DNA of 55,864 nt from Pricia antarctica (GTDB lineage Bacteria; Bacteroidota; Bacteroidia; Flavobacteriales; Flavobacteriaceae), in the NCBI GenBank assembly GCA_011050085.1, contig DRGL01000013.1, forward strand, positions 1 through 55,864. The letters are read 5' to 3'. Made by a program: the position numbers and the translations under genes. Numbering within the stretch: the stretch's first letter is position 1; each line of letters starts with the position of its first letter. This document shows, piece by piece, positions 1-10,577 of the stretch. Under the pieces are notes generated by a model, which ran no database searches, was not told the origin of the DNA, and saw only the letters and a list, made by a program, of their open reading frames with translations.

Positions 1-119
1 ATCATGCTGCAAAAATTGCACTTGGTAATAAATCTAATGTCTTTATTAGCAAGACATCTGGTGGCAAATTATCTAAACATGCCGCTAAACGTAGAAGAAG
101 AAAATTAAGAGGAAAGTAA
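1..119 (+). CDS. C-terminal fragment of an unknown basic protein
   Basis: The gene starts before the window. The frame enters at base 3 and runs 38 codons to TAA at 117-119. The visible end is rich in lysine and arginine (it ends KRRRRKLRGK), which would suit nucleic-acid binding. No domain is recognisable from so short a piece. The next possible start codon (120) shares the last A of the TAA, the close packing seen throughout this phage. Confidence 0.6.
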   Translation, partial: HAAKIALGNKSNVFISKTSGGKLSKHAAKRRRRKLRGK

Positions 120-257
120 ATGGCAGAAACAGAAAAGATGACTGAGTATGTTGAGCAGTAAAGCGCATCAATCCCGATATGGCTTGATTATCTATGGCAC
201 GACAACTTTTGCACACCAATTTATTTAAGGCATAGAAAACATAGGTTGCAATTATGA
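120..257 (+). pseudogene. Small ORF interrupted by an in-frame TAA
   Basis: ATG at 120 (TAAATG junction) gives 13 codons to a TAA at 159-161. The same frame then stays open for 31 more codons to a TGA at 255-257, which overlaps the next ATG (254) as ATGA. That overlap is the usual gene junction here, so the full 45-codon frame looks like the original gene with one nonsense codon. It could instead be a chance 13-codon ORF followed by noncoding sequence. No function is recognisable. Confidence 0.3.
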
Positions 258-550
258 TTAAATCATTCATACTAACATTCATATTTTGGACCCTGTTTAT
301 CATCATAGATTCCATCATGGATGCTATAAAGGTCTATACGAAATTCATCTGGTATAAAAACAGCAAGTTATGGCACCGATTGAAATATTTCAGAATAGGA
401 TTCTGTGTAGCTACTGGCTGGTGTGCTTATGGATTATATTTATCAATATCCGGGTATGAACATGGATTGTTTAGCTTTCTCCTGCTATGGTTCCTGTTTT
501 TGCGCTGGATCTTATTTGAAGGTTTAATGAAAAAATGGAGTGGACAGTAA
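254..550 (+). CDS. Small membrane protein, 98 aa
   Basis: Hydrophobic segments lie at about residues 3-22, 48-66 and 73-90, with a short basic loop between the first two, so this is probably a two- or three-span inner membrane protein. The start overlaps the preceding stop (ATGA) and the stop overlaps the next start (TAATG), so it is translationally coupled. I do not recognise the family. Position in a run of small genes before the terminase suggests an accessory role (inference). Confidence 0.6.
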   Translation: MIKSFILTFIFWTLFIIIDSIMDAIKVYTKFIWYKNSKLWHRLKYFRIGFCVATGWCAYGLYLSISGYEHGLFSFLLLWFLFLRWILFEGLMKKWSGQ

Positions 551-696
551 TGTATGAGAATTGCCCGTTAAAAGGGAAAGTTTGCCCTTTATGTTTTGTG
601 TCGGGCGGTCTTGGTCAAACTTTAATTTGTAGCAAAAAAGTCGGCGAAAACGAGATACAGAAAATGAAATGCTGTCCCAAGAAAAAAAAAAGATAA
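550..696 (+). CDS. Cys-rich 48-aa protein, zinc-ribbon-like
   Basis: ATG shares the A of the upstream TAA. Cysteines occur as C5, C12-P-L-C15, C27 and C41-C42, with a lysine-rich tail. The opening (NCPLKGKVCPLC) resembles short phage proteins with two cysteine pairs, and another protein in this window (53789-54025) has a comparable CPLIK..C..DC stretch. Metal binding is inferred from cysteine spacing only. Confidence 0.5.
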   Translation: MYENCPLKGKVCPLCFVSGGLGQTLICSKKVGENEIQKMKCCPKKKKR

Positions 697-725
697 AACT
701 TAAAACAATTATTAAAGGAGACGCC

Positions 726-920
726 ATGACCAGATCAGATATTAAATTAACCAAAGCTCAGATTGAACACATTAACCAAACCGGCTCAATGCCGTGTCCG
801 CATTGTGAAACAGTGATGGAACGGTTTCCCCGAGATCCGAAAACGCAAGTTCACGCAGCTAAAAAACCGGAGCTGTATTGTGCGAAGGATCATGAATCTG
901 TAGCTTTGTTTGTGAGGTAG
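726..920 (+). CDS. Small CPHC-motif protein, 64 aa
   Basis: The start at 726 is chosen because AAAGGAG (714-720) lies 5 nt upstream; an in-frame ATG at 669 would overlap the previous gene and has no ribosome binding site. The protein has a CPHC motif near residues 24-27 and a third cysteine further on (YCAKDH), so a degenerate zinc ribbon is possible. No family recognised. Confidence 0.6.
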   Translation: MTRSDIKLTKAQIEHINQTGSMPCPHCETVMERFPRDPKTQVHAAKKPELYCAKDHESVALFVR

Positions 921-922
921 AT

Positions 923-1405
923 ATGGATATTACTAAAGAGATAGAAGATTTGAGGGGTTATTTCAATAAAACCATATTGGGATCGGAGCAACAAACAACC
1001 CTTAGAAGCATTTTAGATATTCTTTTTGAATTATATGAACTGCACGAACGCCAGAAAACACGAGAGGGTAGGAGAAAAGAAGAATTAGCTAACTATTGCG
1101 GTAGAATAGAGGCGCTGGAAGGGGCTCACGTTAGAAACAAAGGACGGACCAATAAAGTCCAAAAGGAAATATTTGAAGTGTGGGGGCAAATTAGCAAACT
1201 TGAAAAAGCGGTTTATCGTTCGGCGGAAATAAAATCAGCAGGGCCGCCAAAAGAAGAATTAAAGCCTTGTCTGTTTTGCAAGTGTGCCGTAACAGAAATC
1301 AGGTTTGAGGGCAGATATTTTGTTGTGTGTTCTAGATGTTATTGTTGTGGCCCGAAAGCTGATACCGAATATTGGGCTGCGGTTAAATGGAACTTGGGGT
1401 CATAA
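923..1405 (+). CDS. Coiled-coil protein with C-terminal Lar-like zinc ribbon, 160 aa
   Basis: The first two thirds are charged and helical (coiled coil). The end, from about residue 113, reads LKPCLFCKC...VVCSRCYCCGPKADTEYWAAVKWN. This matches the pattern of Lar-family restriction alleviation domains, whose usual form is KPCPFCG, then VxCxxCGxxGP, then AxxxWN. Lar proteins modulate host type I restriction; whether this one does is inference from the domain pattern. Compared with stand-alone Lar proteins it carries an added helical N-terminal region. Its stop overlaps the next start (TAATG). Confidence 0.6.
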   Translation: MDITKEIEDLRGYFNKTILGSEQQTTLRSILDILFELYELHERQKTREGRRKEELANYCGRIEALEGAHVRNKGRTNKVQKEIFEVWGQISKLEKAVYRSAEIKSAGPPKEELKPCLFCKCAVTEIRFEGRYFVVCSRCYCCGPKADTEYWAAVKWNLGS

Positions 1406-1608
1406 TGGCTAAAAAACTAACACCCGAAGATTTCCGGAAACTGGAAGAACAGAAGGAACGCCAGGACAGGGCTAACAATTTTAAAAAGGCTGTCGAATAC
1501 CAGGAGAAGAAATTTAACTGTGTCATTATTCCGGTTCATACATTCGTTGGCGGCAACATGCAGTCCGGATGGCTCGGGGAGGCTTTGCCGGTTAAGGAGA
1601 AGAAGTGA
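1405..1608 (+). CDS. Unknown protein, 67 aa
   Basis: Starts at the ATG overlapping the previous stop; an upstream in-frame ATG at 1387 lies inside the preceding gene. The first half is charged and helical, the second contains a short hydrophobic strand (CVIIPVHTFVGG). Not recognised. Confidence 0.55.
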   Translation: MAKKLTPEDFRKLEEQKERQDRANNFKKAVEYQEKKFNCVIIPVHTFVGGNMQSGWLGEALPVKEKK

Positions 1609-1757
1609 TTAATCTTGAAATCAAAATAAACACAAAACAATTTGAGAAGGCGCTGGCAACATGGAAGAAGTCGATTAGTTTTAGAAGGTCCATATATCAC
1701 GTACAATACGAACAACTAAAAGAATCCGGATTAATTTCACCGTGTAGGTATCTATGA
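1605..1757 (+). CDS. Unknown 50-aa protein, GTG start
   Basis: GTG at 1605 overlaps the previous stop and is preceded by AAGGAG (1594-1599). The frame ends with TGA at 1755-1757, overlapping the next ATG (1754). The protein is basic with a KQFEKALATWKK helix. The overlaps on both sides and the ribosome binding site support a real gene; function unknown. Confidence 0.5.
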   Translation: MINLEIKINTKQFEKALATWKKSISFRRSIYHVQYEQLKESGLISPCRYL

Positions 1758-1939
1758 AAACCAAGAAACCAACCAGCAAGGGCGATGAATTGATGAAGAA
1801 ATACCATAACGATGAATCTTTGCAAGATAGCTTTAACCGTCAAATGAGGGAATTGCAACAAGTAATGTCATCTCCCTTGAATATAACTAAATTATTGAGA
1901 AGCAATGAAGCCAATATTTCATGTAAAGTGGTTGGATGA
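1754..1939 (+). CDS. Unknown protein, 61 aa
   Basis: Coupled to the previous gene by ATGA. Basic N-terminus (KTKKPTSKGDELMKKYHND) followed by a helical stretch. No family recognised. Confidence 0.5.
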   Translation: MKTKKPTSKGDELMKKYHNDESLQDSFNRQMRELQQVMSSPLNITKLLRSNEANISCKVVG

Positions 1940-1942
1940 TAA

Positions 1943-2062
1943 ATGATTGATCTAATCGGTTTGACTATAGAATTTTTATTAGGAATGTTTGTTTTAGTAA
2001 TGGTATTTGTTGCGTTTGCCGTTATTTTTATTGGGCTTGTGATCGGTATTCGCGGATATTGA
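1943..2062 (+). CDS. Single-span membrane peptide, 39 aa
   Basis: ATG three bases after the preceding stop. Almost the whole product is a hydrophobic helix (residues about 8-34) with a short positive end (GIRGY). The size and composition fit the tiny membrane proteins common in phages. It may also be a chance ORF, since no strong ribosome binding site is present. Confidence 0.4.
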   Translation: MIDLIGLTIEFLLGMFVLVMVFVAFAVIFIGLVIGIRGY

Positions 2063-2096
2063 AATCTTTTATTAAATAATTTGAAATAATTAGAAA

Positions 2097-2558
2097 ATGC
2101 CAAAGAAAGACAGCGAAAAATATAAACTTGACGGTATACACAAAGAGTATATTCTCAATAAATTAGCCTTGCACTGTGGACAAACGGAAATTGTCAAAGC
2201 TATCAAAACAAACTTTGGAATTGAAATATCAGTGCAAGGCATTGATTATTATAAGCGCGAATATGAAAAGGAATGGCGCGAAAAGAGGAGCTATTTCAAT
2301 AAGCACATTGCCGAGATTGAACCTTTTGCAGATAAGTCTTTAAGGGTCCAGAAACGGGGAGAATTGATTCGGGACATTGAGGATGAGGGGTTGTGGTATA
2401 CTGTTTTTGGAAAATTTGGAGATCACAAAAAAGGCAATCATGGAGCGATTAATGATCTTTTAGATTCAATTAAAAAGGAAATAGAGCCGTTTAAAATTGC
2501 CCAAACCAATCCGGACGGCGAAGGCCCGGTTGAAATTAACGTGAAACTTGTAGATTAG
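2097..2558 (+). CDS. terS: Putative terminase small subunit, 153 aa
   Basis: The N-terminal half is a helix-turn-helix type region: residues about 10-45 contain HKEYILNKLALHCGQTEIVKAI and FGIEISVQGIDYYKREYEKEW. This layout matches phage small terminase proteins of the DUF2280-like type, with HTH followed by helices used for oligomerisation. Small terminase recognises packaging sites and recruits the large subunit. The large terminase follows two small genes later, which supports the call. The region before the ATG is A/T-rich and lacks a clear ribosome binding site. Confidence 0.65.
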   Translation: MPKKDSEKYKLDGIHKEYILNKLALHCGQTEIVKAIKTNFGIEISVQGIDYYKREYEKEWREKRSYFNKHIAEIEPFADKSLRVQKRGELIRDIEDEGLWYTVFGKFGDHKKGNHGAINDLLDSIKKEIEPFKIAQTNPDGEGPVEINVKLVD

Positions 2559-2569
2559 GAGGAAACACC

Positions 2570-2896
2570 ATGAAATCATTTAGAAAAAGAAATGATAACG
2601 AAGATCGTATTCAAGAGAAAACAATCATTGTAGGAGAAATAAAACTCACCACAAAACAACAGGCGAGGCTTTATACTCAAAGCGAAAGATCACACTATTT
2701 TAGGGATAAAATAAAGGATATTGTTTCATCTTTAATAGATGAATCTTATGAATGTGAGAAGATGTTTTGGAATGATGTCGCAAGGGTATGTGGATATAAA
2801 AGCACCTTTGACGCAAGCATAAAAGATGGCATACATCTCCGGGTAGATTGGTTAAAAGGTGTAATAGAAAAAAGAAAACTGAAAGAGACTGATTAA
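2570..2896 (+). CDS. Unknown protein between terminase genes, 108 aa
   Basis: Good ribosome binding site (AGGAGGAAACACC). The middle is charged and helical and contains MFWNDVARVCGYKSTFDASIKDG, which could be a small helical DNA- or protein-binding fold. No family recognised. It sits between small and large terminase, so a packaging-related role is possible (inference from place only). Confidence 0.6.
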   Translation: MKSFRKRNDNEDRIQEKTIIVGEIKLTTKQQARLYTQSERSHYFRDKIKDIVSSLIDESYECEKMFWNDVARVCGYKSTFDASIKDGIHLRVDWLKGVIEKRKLKETD

Positions 2897-2910
2897 TTAG
2901 GAGGAACACC

Positions 2911-3102
2911 ATGTCGCTCATTGCCGGAATGAACGAAGAATTAAATCGAGATAGAGAGCTTTTACAGCAATATCAACAAATCGGCGGTTTGTTTGCATTT
3001 ACTATACTTAAAGCTAAAATAAAAGAAGCAGAGGACTCTATTGCAAGTGGGAATGTTGTAAGAATGTTAATTGCATACAAAACACTGAAAAATTCAAAAT
3101 AA
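2911..3102 (+). CDS. Conserved-looking small phage protein, 63 aa
   Basis: Starts after GGAGGAACACC. Helical, with an N-terminal MNEELNRDRELLQQYQQIG segment and a second helix NVVRMLIAYKTLK. I recall short phage proteins of this pattern (RDRELLxQYxxIG, then a VxMLxAYxxLK end) beside terminase genes, but have no function for them. Confidence 0.6.
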   Translation: MSLIAGMNEELNRDRELLQQYQQIGGLFAFTILKAKIKEAEDSIASGNVVRMLIAYKTLKNSK

Positions 3103-3105
3103 TAA

Positions 3106-4320
3106 ATGGATCCAACTAATGTCAATATCAGCAGAAAAGTCTTCAATCCTAAGTTCCTACCGCTATTGGACAATGATGATGCGGTTAACATATTTTATGG
3201 CGGTGCATCGTCCGGCAAGTCTCATTTTCTTGCCCAGAGGGTTATCTACCGCATGCTTAAAGATATTGATCGCAATACGATGGTTGTCCGTAAAGTTGCT
3301 CGAACTAACCGGGGCTCGACGTTTGCCGAGATTAAAAAAGTCATCAATACATGGGAAATGAATAGCTTGTTTAAAATCAATAAATCCGAAATGACTATAA
3401 CGCGCAAAGGCGGTGGACAGATCCGGTTTGAGGGTTTGGATGACGTTCAGAAGCTCAAGAGCGTGACGTTTGAGCGCGGCGTTCTGAATGATATTTGGTT
3501 TGAAGAAGCTACAGAGGGATCACAAGATGACGTGATTGAACTTGAATTAAGATTACGCGGGCTGTCTAAAGTTCCATTTCAATTAACAATGTCATTCAAT
3601 CCGATTTCTGCTTTGCACTGGATCAAGAAAGTATATTTCGATGCCCAGCATGACAATGTTACAATCCACCATAGCACATACCTGGACAATAGATTTTTAG
3701 GCGAGCGTGAAAAGAAAACACTTCAGAACCTAAAAGCATCGCACCTGGTTAAATATGACATTTACGCGCTGGGTAAATGGGGCGTGCTTGGTGGTTTAAT
3801 CTACACTAATTACAAAGTGCATAAATTTGAGGACGACTTTGATAGGCATTATAACGGTTTAGATTGGGGCTATAAAAATCCGGCAGCATTTTTGAAGATG
3901 GGATTCCGGGACCAGGAAATCTATATCATTGATGAATTTTATATGTCCGGAGTTGATAATCCAGGTTTGATGCGGGCTGGTAAGCGTGTCTGGGATAAGC
4001 AGCGGGACAGAATAACAGCCGACAGTGCAGAGCCGCGATCAATAAAAGAATGGCAAACGGCTGGTTGGATGATTGAGGGTGCGCGCAAGGGTAAAGATTC
4101 GGTTCGCAATGGTATTGGCTGGATCAGAAGCCATCCGATGCACATACATCCGCGCTGTCAGAACTTCATTAACGAGATTCAGGGTTATGTATACCGCAAA
4201 GATAAAGATGGGAACGAGACAGAGGAGCCGTTGGATTTCCGCAATCATTTGATGGATGCAAAACGTTATGGATTTGAAGAGCTAATGGACTTAAAAGAGT
4301 TTAGAGTATTGGCGGTTTGA
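3106..4320 (+). CDS. terL: Terminase large subunit, PBSX-like family, 404 aa
   Basis: This is the ATP-driven DNA packaging motor and genome-cutting nuclease, acting at the procapsid portal. ATPase: Walker A GGASSGKS (residues 32-39), Walker B LNDIWFEE (127-134) and the coupling motif TMSFNP (161-166). Nuclease: D253 in GLDWGYKNP, D306 and E309 in TADSAEP, and D384 in HLMDAKRYG, the acidic residues expected of the RNase H-like domain. Length about 400 is typical. The start at 3106 follows the previous stop by 3 nt. The fold order and motifs leave little doubt about function. Confidence 0.93.
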   Translation: MDPTNVNISRKVFNPKFLPLLDNDDAVNIFYGGASSGKSHFLAQRVIYRMLKDIDRNTMVVRKVARTNRGSTFAEIKKVINTWEMNSLFKINKSEMTITRKGGGQIRFEGLDDVQKLKSVTFERGVLNDIWFEEATEGSQDDVIELELRLRGLSKVPFQLTMSFNPISALHWIKKVYFDAQHDNVTIHHSTYLDNRFLGEREKKTLQNLKASHLVKYDIYALGKWGVLGGLIYTNYKVHKFEDDFDRHYNGLDWGYKNPAAFLKMGFRDQEIYIIDEFYMSGVDNPGLMRAGKRVWDKQRDRITADSAEPRSIKEWQTAGWMIEGARKGKDSVRNGIGWIRSHPMHIHPRCQNFINEIQGYVYRKDKDGNETEEPLDFRNHLMDAKRYGFEELMDLKEFRVLAV

Positions 4321-4321
4321 G

Positions 4322-4489
4322 ATGAACTTATTTCTTAACATTTTAATATTTTGTTTTTCTATCTTTGCAATAATAACTTTATACTCTATTGATTTTGGCA
4401 CGCTGGACACGTTTTCGAAATATGAGTCTTGTTTGTTGATATTGATATTGGTAATATTATCAAAAATATATCATAAAATGGATAATTAA
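4322..4489 (+). CDS. Two-span membrane protein, 55 aa
   Basis: ATG one base after the terminase stop. Hydrophobic stretches at residues about 3-22 and 36-49, separated by a short acidic loop (DFGTLDTFSKYES). No known family and no strong ribosome binding site; coupling to terL translation is likely. Confidence 0.45.
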   Translation: MNLFLNILIFCFSIFAIITLYSIDFGTLDTFSKYESCLLILILVILSKIYHKMDN

Positions 4490-4490
4490 T

Positions 4491-4715
4491 ATGCTAATTG
4501 AGTTTATAGGCGGTAAAATGGATGGGGAGGTTGGGGATGTGCCAATCGTATATAGTTCGATAAAGGTTCCATATTGCAAACCGCTAAACAACAATGAGTA
4601 TTTAACTAGGCAACAGTTTTCTGAATCAGTAAAGGAACCTATGTTTTTTGTTGCAGTCTATCACCGCAAACCAGCAACCAACAAATTCTACTTTGATAAA
4701 ATAGAGGAGGTGTGA
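4491..4715 (+). CDS. Unknown protein, 74 aa
   Basis: Beta-rich small protein beginning MLIEFIGGKMDGEV. It ends at a stop overlapping the next gene. This is the first of a run of unknown genes between terL and portal. No function recognised. Confidence 0.55.
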   Translation: MLIEFIGGKMDGEVGDVPIVYSSIKVPYCKPLNNNEYLTRQQFSESVKEPMFFVAVYHRKPATNKFYFDKIEEV

Positions 4716-4957
4716 TGGGCAAAAAAGAATCAAATCCACCACCAGCACCAGCTCCAAGAATGGTAGATGCCGAAAACAAGCCATTTAAAAAGGAATGTGC
4801 CGGAGCGTGTTGTATCATAGCAATAAAGCGGATTTCCGACAACGAAGAGGGAATATTTTATTTTGATTGCGATGATGGCTTGCAATGGGCTGTCATCAAA
4901 TTTTGTCCATATTGTGGAGGTATGTTAAAATGTCCGAACAAATCAAAGTCACACTAA
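4715..4957 (+). CDS. Cys-rich protein with FCPYCGG ribbon, 80 aa
   Basis: ATG 4715 is preferred over GTG 4712; GAGGAGG lies at 4704-4710. The N-terminus is proline-rich (PPPAPAP). Cysteines occur in ECAGACC and in the late FCPYCGGMLKC, which looks like one half of a zinc ribbon with an unusual first half. Overlaps the next gene by 28 nt. Unknown role. Confidence 0.6.
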   Translation: MGKKESNPPPAPAPRMVDAENKPFKKECAGACCIIAIKRISDNEEGIFYFDCDDGLQWAVIKFCPYCGGMLKCPNKSKSH

Positions 4958-5184
4958 CATTCAACTTTGCCGATGAGGGTGAAGAAAAACAACCAGATTT
5001 AATCAGCATCAACGATGGTAAATCTAACCCATTAGACAGAACTAAATTGATTGATCTGATAATATTATTACAAATCAACAAACAGCTATATGATGTGGAA
5101 TCAAACGAATCAACCGCAAAAGCTGAACGAAGTAGACTTAATGATTTAAAAAAATCGATTGCACTTGACAAATTGGGTAAGTGA
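4930..5184 (+). CDS. Unknown acidic/helical protein, 84 aa
   Basis: The ATG at 4930 is chosen because GGAGG (4916-4920) lies 9 nt upstream, inside the end of the previous gene; the longer in-frame start at 4885 has no such site. An N-terminal beta-like strand (IKVTLTFNFADEG) is followed by a long charged helix. Not recognised. Confidence 0.55.
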   Translation: MSEQIKVTLTFNFADEGEEKQPDLISINDGKSNPLDRTKLIDLIILLQINKQLYDVESNESTAKAERSRLNDLKKSIALDKLGK

Positions 5185-5196
5185 TTGGATTAAATC

Positions 5197-5547
5197 ATGA
5201 GCATAGAACAAATTATATTTCATAGCCTGACAGACGAGCTTGGTAAAATGTATATGGATGCTTCAATTTTAGAGCGTGATCCAATTAACTTATGGGGCAT
5301 TCCGGTATTGGAAAATAAATATTTGCCTGAAAATACAATGATGTGCGTTTGTGGTGATTTTGTTAAGTTCGTAAAGATTGATGGTAATAGACTAAAGTTC
5401 TGGGATGTTGCACGTGAGAAAATGGAACTTAAACTTTGCAAATGGGAACCATTAGAGCCGACAAACAATGACAACGACAATCAATTTAAGTTTATTGGCA
5501 ATAACCTTATAAATAAAATAACAGACCAATTAAGGCCGCTGTCATGA
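5197..5547 (+). CDS. Unknown protein, 116 aa
   Basis: Mixed alpha/beta protein with a short MMCVCGDFVKFVKIDG strand region. Its end overlaps the next ATG (ATGA). No recognisable domain; a structural or host-interaction role cannot be told apart. Confidence 0.55.
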   Translation: MSIEQIIFHSLTDELGKMYMDASILERDPINLWGIPVLENKYLPENTMMCVCGDFVKFVKIDGNRLKFWDVAREKMELKLCKWEPLEPTNNDNDNQFKFIGNNLINKITDQLRPLS

Positions 5548-5864
5548 TAATTAAACTATGGCAGAAAACACATAAACAAATTCAAAAAGATGTCAGCTTT
5601 CCTATCTACAGGCAGATTTCGAGCGATTACGATACAGAATATACTCGAATAAACGATGATTTAACAGCAATTTCGATAACAGAAGAATTGTGTCCTACCG
5701 GTAGGGTTAAATATATAATCGAATACGTACCTAAGTACACTTTTGACAAATCGGATATGAATTATCATCTCGGTTTAAATGAAAATTCATCATCAAAGGA
5801 AGAATTTTTTGATGCGTTTTATAGGTTTGAGAAGCATATTAAAAAGATAGGGGCGACTTTATGA
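5544..5864 (+). CDS. Unknown protein, 106 aa
   Basis: Coupled to its neighbours by ATGA overlaps on both sides. Beta strands (TAISITEELCPTGRVKYIIEY) are followed by a helical acidic end. Not recognised. Confidence 0.55.
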   Translation: MIIKLWQKTHKQIQKDVSFPIYRQISSDYDTEYTRINDDLTAISITEELCPTGRVKYIIEYVPKYTFDKSDMNYHLGLNENSSSKEEFFDAFYRFEKHIKKIGATL

Positions 5865-6046
5865 AATCTAACTACCGCAACAAAATGCAATCGCCTGACA
5901 TAATCAAGCAGGACAAATTCAACCGACGCACTGAGGCGGATCAGGCTTTGATTAAGGCGCGATATGACCAGCACAAGGCTCTGGCGTTCAAGGTTGGCGC
6001 GAAGCCGATGGAGTGGCCTGCTTGGTTGGTGAAGGAGGGGTATTGA
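5861..6046 (+). CDS. Unknown basic protein, 61 aa
   Basis: ATGA overlap with the previous gene. Helical and basic, containing RRTEADQALIKARYDQHKAL and a tryptophan-rich end (MEWPAWLVKEG). The codon use is more G/C-rich than its neighbours, but no function is apparent. Confidence 0.55.
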   Translation: MKSNYRNKMQSPDIIKQDKFNRRTEADQALIKARYDQHKALAFKVGAKPMEWPAWLVKEGY

Positions 6047-6047
6047 T

Positions 6048-6242
6048 ATGTATGAATTATATTGTCTTGTCTGTGATGAGTGGGTACCAATGGTTGAAAT
6101 GTCTGCAAACAATTTAGGCTATGGCAGAGTTGAAGCAGAATTTAAGGTTTCCTGCGGACACCACATAAAAACAAAAAGTTCGAATCGTCCGTTTGGTGAA
6201 ATGCTTCTTGTGGGCGATCCGGAAGAATTAAAAGCCAAATGA
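6048..6242 (+). CDS. Small CLVC-motif protein, 64 aa
   Basis: Strong ribosome binding site (AAGGAGGGG). Cysteines C6-L-V-C9 and a later CGHH could together form one zinc site, as in short phage zinc-ribbon proteins. Unknown function. Confidence 0.55.
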   Translation: MYELYCLVCDEWVPMVEMSANNLGYGRVEAEFKVSCGHHIKTKSSNRPFGEMLLVGDPEELKAK

Positions 6243-6460
6243 AAATACAGCTAACAAGAAAATTTGAAGGTGTTCCAATCATTGAAATAACCGAAACAAT
6301 TTATTTGAATTTATTGGACAGCATTCACCTATTCACACTTGACCAATATCTGAAAAGCTGGATTATGGATAAACGTGAAATCGGCATGATAATTAACATT
6401 GTTGGCACATGGAACAATATAAAACATATTAAACCGATATTAAGAATGAAATTAATTTAA
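6239..6460 (+). CDS. Unknown protein, 73 aa
   Basis: ATGA overlap. Contains a leucine-rich helix (YLNLLDSIHLFTLDQYLKSW) and a hydrophobic GMIINIVG strand. Not recognised. Confidence 0.5.
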   Translation: MKIQLTRKFEGVPIIEITETIYLNLLDSIHLFTLDQYLKSWIMDKREIGMIINIVGTWNNIKHIKPILRMKLI

Positions 6461-6479
6461 AAGCCAAAGGAGGCTTGTG

Positions 6480-6752
6480 ATGGATGAAGCGAAAGCACAG
6501 AGAGAAACCCAAGTATGCCACGAATTAAATGAAATAGGGTTTGCGGCTGAACGGTTGGAAAAAACAATTAATTGCTTAATCGAAAGGCTAAAGAGTGTCT
6601 TGCAGGAGAGATCCGCCGAGGTTGGAATGGTTCAAAAAGAACCCGATAGCAAACAGCTGGTTCCTTTGGCACAACAGATAAAAGGGAGGTCGTGTGCAAT
6701 CAACAGGCTTAATGATAAATTGGGAGACGTTATCGCAGGCTTAGAAATATGA
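6480..6752 (+). CDS. Helical coiled-coil protein, 90 aa
   Basis: ATG 6480 is preferred over GTG 6477; AAAGGAGG lies at 6466-6473. The product is mostly helical with heptad-like spacing (ELNEIGFAAERLEKTINCLI and a second helix near the end), so oligomerisation is likely. Function unknown. Confidence 0.6.
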   Translation: MDEAKAQRETQVCHELNEIGFAAERLEKTINCLIERLKSVLQERSAEVGMVQKEPDSKQLVPLAQQIKGRSCAINRLNDKLGDVIAGLEI

Positions 6753-6979
6753 TCAACTACCTAATAGCCGGATTCATAGTAGCCTACGCTGTTTTAGTCG
6801 GCTACACGATACTCATATACTTCAATACGGACACAAACGCAGTGCCTAAGCGTGGCTCAAAAGGGTATCCGGTTTACATGCACGGCTTAATATGGTTTAA
6901 TGGTTTGTGGATCTCGTTCGCCTTCGCGCTGGGGTCGATAATCGCTAAGTGGATCGGTGAGCAGTTGGGAGGAATGTGA
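6749..6979 (+). CDS. Two-span membrane protein, 76 aa
   Basis: Hydrophobic segments at residues about 4-26 and 45-66, with a basic loop (VPKRGSKG) between them that would face the cytoplasm. Coupled to the upstream gene by ATGA. Size and topology would suit a holin, but the position before the portal makes that doubtful; left as unknown. Confidence 0.55.
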   Translation: MINYLIAGFIVAYAVLVGYTILIYFNTDTNAVPKRGSKGYPVYMHGLIWFNGLWISFAFALGSIIAKWIGEQLGGM

Positions 6980-7227
6980 TGACGTTATATTTGTTTGAAC
7001 GGATAGATAAAGTAACCGATAGCTGGCACTCAGCGGGCGGTATAGTTATTATTGCGAAGGATCGGCGCCAAGCAAAAGAAATAGCTACTAAATATTTTGA
7101 CAGCAAGTTTGATAAACGTGACAAGGTCGGCATAACTATTGATGAATGGAAATCGGTTAAAGTGTTTGTTTTGGCCGGCAAACACAAGCCAGAAGTATTC
7201 ATATTTCCAGATGAGGGATGCTGTTAA
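6979..7227 (+). CDS. Unknown protein, 82 aa
   Basis: ATG 6979 follows GGGAGGAATGTG. Alternating strands and helices (LYLFERIDKV, IVIIAKDRRQAKEIATKYF) look like a small alpha/beta fold. It ends with CC. Not recognised. Confidence 0.55.
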   Translation: MTLYLFERIDKVTDSWHSAGGIVIIAKDRRQAKEIATKYFDSKFDKRDKVGITIDEWKSVKVFVLAGKHKPEVFIFPDEGCC

Positions 7228-7452
7228 ATGAAACGCACCATAATCACAATCAAAACAATCAACTCCGGCAATAAGATCAAATCGCAAAGCCGCATACTGC
7301 TCAAGGAGGCGGAAGGTTGGCACGGAAAGATTGAGCTGGTTATGAAGGATGGCGTTTGCGTCCATGCGTCTGCACCGGTCAAGAATTTAACCGTCGAGAA
7401 GATATCGATTAGCGCGTATCTTAATAATAATGATTCGGGGGATGGAAAATAA
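7228..7452 (+). CDS. Unknown beta-rich protein, 74 aa
   Basis: Starts directly after the previous stop. Composition (ITIKTINSGNKIKSQSRILL and a later IELVMKDGVCVHASAP) suggests a small beta sheet. No family recognised. Confidence 0.5.
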   Translation: MKRTIITIKTINSGNKIKSQSRILLKEAEGWHGKIELVMKDGVCVHASAPVKNLTVEKISISAYLNNNDSGDGK

Positions 7453-7513
7453 GGCTAAAGTTTTCGTAAAATGTGCCGATATATAAGTAGACGCAAACAA
7501 AAAGGAGTCTACC

Positions 7514-7834
7514 ATGAAAACACGAATAAAACTAACAATCGCGCCCGCCATAATCATCTTAATCGCACTGGCTTTATACTTTAGTCCCGCCATGACAGAT
7601 CCGGTGATAGGCAAAGACGAAAATTATGTAATAGCGATTTCCGACAGCTTGACAATGGGATATTTTGCCAAATTACTCATAGCAGATTATAAAGAATATG
7701 ATGCCGAGTGTTATGCGGATAGCACCAACTCTCTGAATGGTTGGCGGGAGACCGGTGTTTATAGTTACTCGCATAGAGAGATGACATTGCCGGGATTTGT
7801 GGAATTTATGGAACGGAAATACGATTTGAAATAA
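7514..7834 (+). CDS. Membrane-anchored or secreted protein, 106 aa
   Basis: Ribosome binding site AAAAGGAG. A basic N-terminus (MKTRIKL) is followed by one hydrophobic helix (about residues 7-25, TIAPAIIILIALALYF), giving a signal anchor with about 80 residues on the far side of the membrane. The soluble part is acidic and tyrosine-rich. Unknown; perhaps a host-envelope factor (inference). Confidence 0.6.
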   Translation: MKTRIKLTIAPAIIILIALALYFSPAMTDPVIGKDENYVIAISDSLTMGYFAKLLIADYKEYDAECYADSTNSLNGWRETGVYSYSHREMTLPGFVEFMERKYDLK

Positions 7835-7838
7835 AATA

Positions 7839-7867
7839 TTGCATATTTTGTTAAATATAGTTATATT
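7839..7867 (+). promoter_or_regulatory. Putative sigma70 promoter, TTGCAT class
   Basis: TTGCAT (7839-7844), a 17-nt spacer and TATATT (7862-7867). The same -35 hexamer with the same 17-nt spacing occurs at 38358, also preceded by AATAAAA. It would start transcription at about 7874, just before a small ORF, the Tat-signal gene and the 23S-like RNA. Confidence 0.45.
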
Positions 7868-7876
7868 CGGATTAAT

Positions 7877-8011
7877 ATGAAAACGATAATTGGCACAATC
7901 TCGATTCTAATCAATGGTATAAAAACATGCTTCAAGTCATGCAGAGACTATAATGTCATTATGGATGAAGTGGATAAATATATATGTTATGGTAACGAAA
8001 AAACCAATTAA
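7877..8011 (+). CDS. Small Cys-containing peptide, 44 aa
   Basis: ATG lies about 10 nt after the predicted -10 box, so the message would be almost leaderless, and there is no clear ribosome binding site. Four cysteines (CFKSC, YIC) and a basic centre. It overlaps the Tat-signal gene by 23 nt. May be a chance ORF. Confidence 0.3.
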   Translation: MKTIIGTISILINGIKTCFKSCRDYNVIMDEVDKYICYGNEKTN

Positions 8012-8213
8012 CAGACGAAATTTCCTCAAATACTTCACCGGCGGCTTGCTTGGCGCTGGACTTGTGCCGATGGTGGGCAAGGAAGATCCCGACGTTGCAA
8101 CTATGATAGATTTTGAGGGCAATGAATATCCGGTAGTTATAGAACCGATTGATTGGGACATGGCAAGAAAAGAATTAGCAGAGTTCTTTAAAATAGTAAA
8201 ATTACAAGGTTGA
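7989..8213 (+). CDS. Tat-signal microprotein, 74 aa
   Basis: Residues 8-22 read INRRNFLKYFTGGLL, a clear twin-arginine motif (RRxFLK) followed by a weakly hydrophobic glycine/leucine stretch (GGLLGAGLVPMVG), as in Tat export signals. The remaining 45 residues (acidic, with PVVIEPIDWDMARKELAEFF) would be exported or membrane-tethered after folding. The start at 7989 is chosen because it places the RR motif near the N-terminus; ATG 7953 is a longer alternative. Its stop lies inside the outer helix of the RNA that follows. Confidence 0.5.
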   Translation: MVTKKPINRRNFLKYFTGGLLGAGLVPMVGKEDPDVATMIDFEGNEYPVVIEPIDWDMARKELAEFFKIVKLQG

Positions 8214-8374
8214 ATGTGGGCTTAGAAGCAGCCACCATTTAAAGAGTGAGGTGGGCAGCCCTAAATAAATTGGGCGACCTCTGGCTTGAGACACAGCCAA
8301 TGTCGGAACGGTGTCAACCAACGTGTGTTGGCAGACTGTCCTCGCCTCTTTGGCGTAATAGCACACAATTTTGT
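8204..8374 (+). ncRNA. Structured RNA mimicking the 23S rRNA L11-binding (GTPase-associated) centre
   Basis: Bases 8214-8248 (ATGTGGGCTTAGAAGCAG, CCACCATTTAAAGAGTG) match the bacterial 23S rRNA segment of helix 43 and the start of helix 44 with one substitution as I recall the consensus. GGCGTAATAGCACAC (8352-8366) matches the helix 44 loop. ACAAGGTTG (8204-8212) pairs with CAATTTTGT (8366-8374), replacing helix 42 with unrelated bases. Between the two conserved parts is an insert of about 100 nt closed by GAGG/CCTC (8248-8251/8345-8348) and GGGCAG/CTGTCC (8253-8258/8336-8341). It holds hairpins 8259-8274, 8282-8299 and CCAAC-GTGT-GTTGG (8318-8331). Role unknown; an L11 decoy is one possibility. 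Confidence 0.75.
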
Positions 8375-8425
8375 AATGTTCTTTAAAATAAACAGCAACA
8401 TCAAGGTCAGTTGACCGAAATTCGG

Positions 8426-8480
8426 AGGCTGGCTATCTAAGAGATAATGTCTTAATATCTTTTAGGTGGTCAGCCTTTTT
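8426..8480 (+). terminator. Intrinsic terminator after the 23S-like RNA
   Basis: A 21-bp stem (8426-8446 with 8456-8476, all pairs Watson-Crick or G-U) with a 9-nt loop, followed by TTTTT to 8480. It lies between the structured RNA and the portal gene, so the RNA could be released as a discrete molecule. Two small inverted repeats precede it: GGTCA-GT-TGACC (8405-8416) and CCGAA-A-TTCGG (8415-8425). Confidence 0.7.
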
Positions 8481-8495
8481 GCGTTTAGGAGCAGA

Positions 8496-10577
8496 ATGGG
8501 ACTATTACAACAGACATTAGCCGCAAACAAGCTAATCGACCCCAACATTGCACGGGATAACCGGGTAACGCCCGCCATTGCGCACGTGAACGCTGGAATC
8601 ATGGGGCACGGAGTGGACCCGCTGGAGTCTATCGAATCGTTCCAGAAAACATACGCGACTATTACCTGGGTTTATGCTGGCGTATCTGCTATCCAGGATA
8701 ACATTGCCAAACTACCCATCCGCATATATGACCGACCGGCCACGGAAGATGACCGTATTGAGATTACCGATAATCCTAAATTTAAACTATTTGAAAAACC
8801 AAATCCATTCTCCTCCAGGTATTTATTTTGGGCAACAGTAGTTGGATCATTAGAATTAACTGGGGAATTGTTCGTAAACTTAGTTCGCGGCAATGAAAAC
8901 CAACCGCCACAAGCAATGATACCGCTCCGATCTGACCGCATTTCGATTGTCCCCGATCCCAAAGAGTATATTGGAGGGTATGTTTACAAGATTGGTGGTA
9001 TAGAGATACCATTTCAACCCTGGGAAATCTTTCATGTTGCATACTATAACCCAATAGACGATTATCGCGGCCAATCACCGTTACAGGCAGGTCGGAACGC
9101 TCAAATATTGGAACTCCATTCAGTTAATTGGGCGAAAGATTTTTTCAAGAGTGGAACCCGAGCGGCGGGGATGCTTACAATTGATGGGAAGATAGATCAG
9201 GAACAATTTAAGCGTCTCGAGAAGCAGTTTTCTGAAAAATATATAGGTCGGCAAAAAACAATGATATTGGAACAGGGTATGGATTTTACCCAAACGTCCG
9301 TGGCTCCCAAAGATGCTGACTTTTCCGGATTGCGTGACATGAATAAGGCAGAAATATTAGCCGTATTGGGTGTGCCTCCGCTTATGGTTATGGATTTAAG
9401 TGATTCGTCAGTGCTTCAAAACACCGAGATCCAGCGCAAGTTATTCTGGGAAGAAACGTTGATCCCGAAAATGACTATGTTCATGGACGAATATAATACG
9501 GAATTGTTACCGCTGTTCGGCGTTGATGGAGCGGTAGCTGAGTTTGACACGTCCGGCGTTGAAGCATTACAGGAGAACCGGAAAGAAAAGTGGAAACGGT
9601 ACTTTGAGGGATTCACCCGGGGTGCAATAACGCCCGATGAAATACGCCAGGACGTATTCGGCAAAGATCCTATCGGCGGCGCCACGATGACATCGACATA
9701 CCTGTCCATGAATGTATTACCGATCGGCGAAGATACAAGCGCATCGGAAAGAGCCGTTCAATTGATTGAGCGGAAATCACTCAAACAAAAAAAAGTCCGT
9801 GACCAGCAATGGAGGGCTTTTATTGCACGGGTTGTGCCGATAGAACGGGAGTTTGTGCTGGTGTTGGTTAAATTGTTCCGTGAGTTGGAAGAAGAAGTGT
9901 TGCGGAATTGGAACTCACAAAAAGATTTTGCCGGGCTGGTTAAGAAGTATAATCAGAAACCGGATTTTGGATTTGAGGCTTTGTTTAATACCGAAGAATG
10001 GGCTAAAAAGTTTAAGGATGCCGGGTTGCCGTTTCTATCTGAAGCAGTAAGAACAGGCGGCGCCTCTGTATTAGCCGATCTGGTCAGTGATCAGGTTTTT
10101 GATATGACTAACCCGTTCGTCACTGAAACAATTAGAACGCGATTAGATTTCTTTGGCACTAAAGTTATCGGTACCACTCAAAAGGATATTGTGAAGGCTA
10201 TAGCTGCCGGGTTAAAAGAAAATGAAACGATTGAGCAGATCGCTAAGAGATTAGAGCGTTCATTTGATCTGGCGGAGAAGTTAAGGGCGCCGAGAATAGC
10301 ACGGACGGAAGTTACCAGCGGATTTAATGCAGGCAACGTCAACGGAATGCAGCAAAGCGGTGTAGTTGATACCCATAGCTGGCTTACAAGCCGTGATGCT
10401 GATGTTCGCGACCCGGGACATACAAAAACAAGTGGCGGGGAGAATTTAGACGGATTTAGTGTGAGGCTGGGTGAAAACTTTCCCACGCATAGAGAATATT
10501 CGGGATCAACATCTGAATTTCCATCTGATTTTAATGAAAGATGTACAACAATTCCAGACAGAAAAGAATCCGCATGA
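8496..10577 (+). CDS. Portal protein fused to a MuF-like domain, 693 aa
   Basis: The portal forms the DNA channel at one capsid vertex and docks terminase. ATG 8496 is chosen because AGGAG (8487-8491) precedes it; GTG 8466 lies in the terminator stem. Residues about 1-390 fit HK97-type portals (ESFQKTYATITWVYAGVSAI near the start, then IEIPFQPWEIFHVAYYNP and PPLMVMDLSDSS). Residues about 590-685 (RIARTEVTSGFNAGN and an FPSDFNERCTTIP end) fit the MuF/SPP1 gp7 minor head domain, so the two genes are fused. The C-terminus PDRKESA is repeated at the end of the next gene. Confidence 0.85.
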   Translation: MGLLQQTLAANKLIDPNIARDNRVTPAIAHVNAGIMGHGVDPLESIESFQKTYATITWVYAGVSAIQDNIAKLPIRIYDRPATEDDRIEITDNPKFKLFEKPNPFSSRYLFWATVVGSLELTGELFVNLVRGNENQPPQAMIPLRSDRISIVPDPKEYIGGYVYKIGGIEIPFQPWEIFHVAYYNPIDDYRGQSPLQAGRNAQILELHSVNWAKDFFKSGTRAAGMLTIDGKIDQEQFKRLEKQFSEKYIGRQKTMILEQGMDFTQTSVAPKDADFSGLRDMNKAEILAVLGVPPLMVMDLSDSSVLQNTEIQRKLFWEETLIPKMTMFMDEYNTELLPLFGVDGAVAEFDTSGVEALQENRKEKWKRYFEGFTRGAITPDEIRQDVFGKDPIGGATMTSTYLSMNVLPIGEDTSASERAVQLIERKSLKQKKVRDQQWRAFIARVVPIEREFVLVLVKLFRELEEEVLRNWNSQKDFAGLVKKYNQKPDFGFEALFNTEEWAKKFKDAGLPFLSEAVRTGGASVLADLVSDQVFDMTNPFVTETIRTRLDFFGTKVIGTTQKDIVKAIAAGLKENETIEQIAKRLERSFDLAEKLRAPRIARTEVTSGFNAGNVNGMQQSGVVDTHSWLTSRDADVRDPGHTKTSGGENLDGFSVRLGENFPTHREYSGSTSEFPSDFNERCTTIPDRKESA

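Follow-up and report, generated by a model that had tools for sequence, protein, structure and literature searches.

Background

What is a copy of the GTPase-associated centre (GAC), the L11-binding region of 23S rRNA, doing on its own in a phage genome? Viruses carry tRNAs and ribosomal proteins, and there are precedents both for rRNA mimicry, in ribosomal-protein leaders, and for large RNAs of phages located near tRNA islands. In the locus described here, a GAC stands free at positions 8201-8377 of the window, by which we mean the whole stretch of DNA analysed, an entire 55,864-bp contig (C13) of a 5.48-Mb draft genome. Its proteins match the PHROG terminase, portal, head-morphogenesis and capsid families, which makes the window a phage or prophage contig.

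Results

A ribosomal domain without a ribosomal RNA gene

The features of the locus are as follows.

7953-8213, + strand: small ORF, 86 aa, which has a twin-arginine-like signal (by eye) and whose final codons overlap helix 42
8183-8195, + strand: left copy of the 13-nt direct repeat GTTCTTTAAAATA, separated from the closing stem by 5 nt
8201-8212, + strand: helix 42 closing stem, 5' strand ATTACAAGGTTG (scan register, covariation)
8213-8247, + strand: helix 43 hairpin and helix 44 5' strand (23S similarity)
8248-8348, + strand: insert arm of 101 nt, inside helix 44 between 1090 and 1091 (sequence)
8349-8366, + strand: TTT followed by GGCGTAATAGCACAC, the helix 44 loop and 3' strand (sequence, family counts)
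8366-8377, + strand: helix 42 closing stem, 3' strand CAATTTTGTAAT, pairing with 8201-8212
8378-8390, + strand: right copy of the direct repeat GTTCTTTAAAATA, abutting the closing stem directly
About 8427-8480, + strand: imperfect long hairpin then TTTTT, terminator-like, before the portal gene (sequence, cmscan alignment)

Position numbers within the GAC follow E. coli 23S numbering, and its tertiary contacts are those of the 23S GAC. Helix 43 occupies 8214-8238, with its upper hairpin at 8219-8233 and then ACCATTTAAAGAGT up to 8247, which places A1067 at 8224, C1072 at 8229 and 1087-1090 at 8244-8247; GGCGTAATAGCACAC lies at 8352-8366 (C1092 at 8354, A1095 at 8357, G1099 at 8361, A1101 at 8363). 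The 23S-like stretches pointed out by the initial annotation all stand where it had put them, and the 9-bp closing stem that it had drawn (ACAAGGTTG/CAATTTTGT, 8204-8212/8366-8374) is present and extends to 12 pairs (8201-8212/8366-8377), two of them G.U. What it had missed is the architecture, in which the two rRNA halves are separated by the 101-nt insert in helix 44, at whose base a stem of 8 bp, including two G.U, can form (GAGGUGGG/CUCGCCUC, 8248-8255/8341-8348). An unconstrained fold of the element gave another structure, at -59.7 vs -55.7 kcal/mol for the GAC-constrained one, under a model that has no tertiary contacts.

In blastn searches of 2.3 Gb, the 5' half of the element was 93.8% identical to annotated 23S over 32 nt (E 3e-4; matches H41, H53 and H54) and 97.1% identical over 35 nt (E 6e-7) to an unannotated 2.6-kb record (H26) that is probably 23S contamination. 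The claim that no other rRNA surrounds the element held up, with no LSU match in 7000-9500 by an Rfam covariance-model scan (cmscan) and no match to one strict intact-GAC pattern in the whole window. No Rfam 15 family covered the element at gathering score, the sole overlap being a sub-threshold RT-17 match at its 3' end (16.6 bits vs a cut-off of 40.4, E 9.1). We attribute this lack of a family match to the parting of the helix 44 strands by the 101-nt arm. The window holds no tRNA genes, and the 86-aa ORF upstream has no PHROG match. A terminator had been proposed downstream, and a hairpin followed by TTTTT is visible there, while a terminator scan, which needs a loop of 3-8 nt, reported none at 8427-8480.

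No assembled 23S is present in the window's own genome. In relatives of the same genus (L254), the same family (L249, L251) and the same order (L248, L250, L252, L253, L255), 23S has GGCTTGGAAGCAGCCATTCATTTAAAGAGTGCGTAACAGCTCACT or a close variant of it, a sequence distinct from that of the element, which speaks against the artefact joined to host rDNA that the initial annotation had named as a way for its reading to fail. These eight 23S loci have G at the A1067 position in seven cases and A in one (L253), and carry an extra base in the helix 43-44 linker.

Covariation in secondary and tertiary structure

From 213 matches to the 3' motif in 212 loci we assembled 141 unique cores with an unbroken linker, leaving out copies with a diverged or interrupted helix 43, duplicates and copies at contig ends. 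A scan of outer-stem registers in 110 unique elements, from which the window copy (L003) and L006 were excluded, gave as the best register exactly 23S helix 42 (G1055-C1104), with a mean unbroken outer stem of 6.44 pairs vs a maximum of 2.77 in 500 partner shuffles. Relatedness is ignored in the pairing shuffles used here and below, yet many pair types occur and the phages of origin are very different. The outer helix 42 pairs 1051-1108, 1052-1107 and 1053-1106 form in 127, 114 and 123 of the 141 cores (shuffle maxima 74, 76 and 78). Within helix 43, three pairs each form in 140/141: 1058-1080 with all four Watson-Crick types (shuffle maximum 83), 1057-1081 (A-U 128, C-G 12) and 1064-1074 (C-G 129, A-U 10).

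The tertiary contacts behave in the same way. The pair 1082-1086 forms in 134/141 cores (shuffle maximum 94), as U-A in 78, C-G in 34 and A-U in 22, and the triple 1072:1092-1099 switches as a unit, being C:C-G in 104 and U:U-A in 37 with no mixed case among the 141; among 125 cores from the three scans whose patterns fixed nothing but the 3' motif, 88 were of the C type and 37 of the U type. The state of 1092-1099 (C-G or U-A) was set by the search patterns and is not evidence in itself, and the real tests are 1082-1086 and 1072, both left free. Other contacts fit as well (1060/1088 in 141/141, the triple 1071:1091-1100 in 140/141), at positions named in the patterns, so that U1060, A1088, G1091 and C1100 are conserved partly by construction, with three substitutions allowed among the 5' bases.

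Four loci contain tandem GAC-like units (from 875 in L009, from 867 in L014, from 66 in L031 and at 4107-4321 on the minus strand in L132), the upstream unit being diverged and combining U1072 with a GGUGU...AACAC helix 44, which amounts to a U-type triple. On account of these units, we had written down before the scan the prediction that elements with U1092-A1099 should carry U1072. The U-type scan returned 58 loci, in 48 of which helix 43 was located with 1072 left free, and U stood there in 48/48 (40 unique), one of them, L132, having been among the four that prompted the prediction. Among the other 10, four (L212, L232, L233, L240) have a diverged helix 43 with U1072 by eye and four (L201, L206, L208, L219) show no helix 43 in the stretch inspected; the remaining matches, L203 and L220, look like chance.

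The bases at the tip, which face translation factors, vary more: 1067 is A in 118/141, 1070 is A in 103, 1096 is A in 100 and 1097 is U in 64. Variable tips over a fixed or covarying core make us lean towards L11 binding or the fold itself, rather than factor binding, as what is maintained, in a comparison that has no diverse 23S baseline.

With covariation in helices 42 and 43 and in the pair 1082-1086, and a concerted switch of 1072:1092-1099, sequence comparison shows selection on the three-dimensional GAC fold itself. The defining junction of helices 42, 43 and 44 is there, with compensatory pairing, and that the element mimics the GAC fold is in our view almost certain. A phage RNA copying the GAC and selected for its structure, as had been proposed, is thus strongly supported by compensatory changes at both levels, found by the very comparison among relatives whose failure was to count against it.

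A large family in viral genomes

The complete GAC-plus-insert design occurs in 14 phage records, at least 169 viral-contig loci, 12 bacterial assemblies and at least two plasmids, some of the viral-contig loci being near-identical and at least two being the same phages as isolates. The phages, found by blastn and then fetched and read, are pf16, GAP32, XbC2, Kaldavass, Milchi, UNO-G1W1, CBB, XaC1, Aeromonas 4_4572, Astolliot, XacN1, Serratia BF, pEa_SNUABM_12 and Vibrio 2.275.O, the last with a diverged copy. Many other phage records matched by blastn are apparently contaminating bacterial 23S, to judge by their length or a 23S label, and Pd_22F (L006) was rejected as true 23S and kept as a control for it.

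A pattern for the 3' half found at least 120 loci in viral contigs, with helix 43 upstream in 108 of the 120 listed and absent in 12. Genome contigs of 84,980 species yielded 15 loci in one scan, with helix 43 recognised by pattern in 11 and by eye in L143; the remaining three were judged to be chance. Across 149 genomes (G000 and 148 relatives) the strict 3' motif occurred in G000 itself only. Two plasmids, L259 (NC_006823.1) and L260 (CP136011.1), carry the element as read by eye among the best 20 of 228 matched records, which were mostly short 23S-like matches; one of the two plasmids is 909 kb long and has a dense tRNA array. By the strict pattern, 19 of 21 records held one copy and two held none. 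The patterns would miss copies that have no insert. On this distribution of sequences, the window element is one member of a large RNA family.

An accessory cassette among phage genes

A copy 95.6% identical to the window element over 160 nt lies on another viral contig (L045), in a match that ends inside the closing stem. The two closing stems, AUAGAGUUG/CAACUCUAU vs ACAAGGUUG/CAAUUUUGU, share the inner bases, and the outer five pairs differ between the two, yet pair in both, while the flanks outside helix 42 are unrelated. The L045 element precedes genes whose homologues lie near 46.7-47.1 kb in the window (73% over 259 nt; frames by eye), where the window has no element, and the same core thus sits at different genome places. 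Searches for relatives of the window itself confirmed none via its portal protein and returned none by megablast of positions 2-8180 among phage records.

A second contrast comes from Otagovirus, where in UNO-G1W1 the whole element fills the slot between tRNA-Trp and tRNA-Arg, whereas PE09 has an unannotated tRNA-Trp-like sequence and tRNA-Arg a few nt apart with no element, and phiPsa315 has another tRNA-like sequence in that slot (by eye); at this one site the slot is filled or vacated among close relatives, as for a cassette in a tRNA array. Insertion into pre-existing palindromes, as an explanation of the paired flanks, was not seen there. In jumbo phages of the Mimasvirus/Eneladusvirus type from five host genera, the element is kept beside a 198-nt ORF. 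The examples therefore include a constant place in one jumbo-phage lineage, presence or absence as a unit in another lineage and different places in two related phages. Related phages without the element were to count against the initial reading, and some close relatives do lack it; we read these absences as the mark of an accessory cassette.

A tRNA or tmRNA lies within 200 nt of 52/110 elements (47%, against 27% when positions are drawn at random in those loci), 39/110 element loci show no tRNA, and the nearest flanking ORFs are on the same strand in 166 cases vs 74. No conserved neighbouring gene was found: among 130 elements the largest cluster of neighbour proteins spans 6 loci (crude ORFs within 5 kb, blastp 1e-5), and both clusters of that size look by eye like homing nucleases, HNH and GIY-YIG. 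Rfam scans at gathering of 16 element-bearing loci gave no match, among those checked, that overlaps the element. Five element-bearing loci (L121, L128, L130, L034, L114) also hold ROOL, tmRNA, permuted tmRNA, a twister-P5 ribozyme or a group I intron.

Direct repeats of at least 11 nt flank 5/110 elements, one of them T-rich, vs 2/2200 shuffles. Repeats lie near or at the closing stem in the window (13 nt), L128 (12 nt) and L084 (10 nt), and their hugging of the stem suggests insertion with target duplication. As a general rule, flanking repeats were rejected, given only 5/110 and repeats in L090 and L049 that do not hug the stem. In L090, a perfect repeat of 33 nt that includes a TATAAT-like sequence flanks the element upstream and downstream and may be a duplicated promoter.

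A variable arm at a fixed site

In every element found, the insert lies between 1090 and 1091, with a length of 24-365 nt, and its first four stem pairs form in 507/564 cells vs a shuffle maximum of 312. Its content is diverse: 59/130 inserts are singletons with no blastn relative in the set, the largest blastn cluster holds 32/130, and a CACCCC...GGTAAGG motif is common to 23 elements, whose alignment shows a consistent outer fold and no shared internal insert fold. The idea that the insert is a second rRNA mimic was not convincing, as k-mers shared with 23S were in slight excess over each of 20 simple shuffles (9-mers 900 vs 890, 10-mers 267 vs 246, 11-mers 76 vs 72), 12-mers did not exceed them (16 vs 23) and SRL-like matches numbered 6/138 vs 3.95.

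Position 1101 is A in 139/141 cores, where the pattern allowed A or G, and in 16/16 elements with the base left free; TTT precedes GGCG in 10/16 elements with those bases left free. A second, rarer insertion point lies in the helix 43-44 linker, after the 3' strand of helix 43 and before UUUAAAG; it holds 24-61 nt and is used in 12/128 elements (L110, L112, L128, L130, L133, L023, L048, L057, L083, L084, L087 and L105).

Discussion

The reading we prefer is that of a phage-borne, free-standing noncoding RNA that would fold into the GAC and be used in trans on the host translation apparatus; to this explanation as a whole we give an even chance. Its parts differ in standing. That the element acts in trans as an RNA is very probable, this being the best reading of a cassette that has no fixed neighbours and is placed like a tRNA gene. 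The RNA would be transcribed and would accumulate in infected cells, where its GAC module would bind free uL11 of the host and perhaps, in addition, uL10/bL12 or a translational GTPase. We propose uL11 since a GAC on its own is known to be capable of both folding and binding, and by that analogy uL11 binding seems fairly probable: PMC4409310 describes the GAC region as the L11 site with an autonomous fold, and reports that isolated 58-nt and 29-nt GAC RNAs bind a GAC methyltransferase with a Kd of 0.37-0.91 uM. In the weakest step, L11 or factors would be titrated or occupied, which would blunt RelA-type, ribosome-dependent stress signalling or alter elongation, and the insert would lend the RNA stability or a further target specific to the lineage. 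According to PMC9998046, thiostrepton at the cleft between L11 and H43-H44 lowers RelA-dependent pppGpp synthesis.

Titration of L11 or factors as the main role is doubtful. Titrating L11 against all ribosomes needs very high expression, and there is no genetic link to the L11 or L12 partners, since an L11 gene was present in 0/21 element-bearing phage records or contigs and an L12-like match in only 1/21 (UNO-G1W1, W05, PP551948.2, 96300-96383, E 7e-10, in a 195-aa frame). For ROOL, which occurs in phages and prophages, PMC12286853 reports an abundance matching that of 16S rRNA in one strain, and L11 titration is therefore not absurd.

Phage tRNA arrays are thought to offset tRNA attack, and by analogy the GAC RNA could be an anti-defence decoy that absorbs a host toxin, nuclease, modifying enzyme or thiopeptide attacking or sensing the ribosomal GAC. 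Such a role would suit its cassette life among phage tRNAs, its patchy presence among close relatives and its strict fold with variable arms; we nevertheless think it unlikely, as the variation at 1067 (A 118/141) and 1096-1097 would disturb tip-directed enzymes, and no phage-defence effector that targets the GAC is known to us. GAC-modifying enzymes accept isolated GAC fragments well as substrates (PMC4409310), which again favours a decoy. We judge it equally improbable that the GAC serves as a scaffold, recruiting host uL11 or a factor as chaperone or tether for an insert arm that is the working, phage-specific part: the insert is indeed the variable part, at a fixed site on a paired base and in recurrent classes (the cluster of 32/130, the CACCCC...GGTAAGG motif in 23), but neither a common insert fold or activity nor clear second rRNA mimicry was found in it.

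Less likely still is a selfish mobile RNA gene, moving from phage to phage and retaining the GAC fold for no purpose beyond its own mobility or stability. The different genome places of one core in the window and L045, together with the repeats at 5/110 vs 2/2200 shuffles, close to the stem in the window, L128 and L084, are what such a gene would leave; against it, 105/110 elements have no such repeats, no mobility gene is linked (the HNH-like and GIY-YIG-like clusters cover 6 loci each), 19/21 records carry one copy and two none by the strict pattern, and the element has stayed beside the 198-nt ORF in Mimasvirus/Eneladusvirus-type phages of five host genera. A regulatory leader, as the initial annotation had considered, would act in cis as a leader or attenuator like those of rRNA-mimicking ribosomal-protein operons, and the window element does precede a terminator-like hairpin and the portal gene; with no conserved downstream gene among 130 elements (neighbour clusters of at most 6 loci), copies between tRNA genes in several phages, inside tRNA arrays as well as in tRNA-less loci, and no L11 gene in 21 records, we consider it very improbable. 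The high identity to 23S over 32-35 nt could come from a host rDNA fragment joined by assembly or from decaying captured rRNA, an origin we discount almost entirely: independently sequenced phage isolates carry the element, the 23S of host relatives differs, and the compensation in secondary and tertiary structure, that is, the covariation, already refutes it. A self-splicing intron or 23S intervening sequence was likewise rejected, as the flanks outside helix 42 are unrelated between the window and L045 and helix 42 changes freely while pairing.

The element shares with the 23S GAC (helices 42-44, E. coli 1051-1108) the same helices, junction, loop sequences and tertiary contacts, and differs in standing free in phages, in bearing an arm between 1090 and 1091, in a helix 42 of free sequence and in having A at 1101, where the compared 23S copies have U. 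Like GOLLD and ROOL (RF03087), described as structured phage noncoding RNAs near tRNA islands in PMC12286853, it lives in phage genomes, and ROOL is itself present at one element-bearing locus (L121); the element matches neither, is smaller and is built on an rRNA domain. Ribosomal-protein leaders, such as the uL1 site of the L11-L1 operon in PMC10931766, also have an RNA imitate the rRNA site of a protein, but act in cis on their own operon, whereas the element has no fixed downstream gene, and no fixed place upstream of a ribosomal-protein gene emerged when L11 and L12 were searched in 21 records. OLE RNA, proposed in PMC12286853 to sequester free RpsU in a ribosome-like pocket, is similar in principle and differs in protein, RNA and hosts, the sequences having been compared via Rfam scans only.

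In the open-licence literature we found no published description of a free-standing viral GAC RNA, and the main texts of the XacN1 paper (PMC5852040) and the XaC1/XbC2 paper (PMC11273794) contain none of the terms rRNA, 23S, non-coding or ncRNA. The family could be an unnamed candidate in PMC8040213, since its supplements list thousands of candidate RNAs; the main text mentions neither 23S nor L11. A detached viral ribosomal centre with a grafted variable arm is not among the kinds of RNA that these searches turned up.

We would suggest, tentatively and with rather less than even confidence, that these widespread viral RNAs are detached, evolvable copies of the GAC with lineage-specific arms, which capture L11 or translational GTPases and so retune or disarm ribosome-based sensing (RelA, ribosome-directed defences). 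Because the GAC fold, L11 and inhibitors such as thiostrepton are well studied, the function is directly testable. The many natural GAC sequences that evolve outside the ribosome also allow bases needed for folding and L11 to be told apart cleanly from those that serve translation. Should the RNA prove to bind L11 or factors in cells, it would exemplify a viral strategy directed at translation or the stringent response, and its naturally diverse arms, 37-365 nt long in 130 elements, would be a ready-made library of GAC-based RNA devices. The element suggests a new viral means of interfering with protein synthesis.
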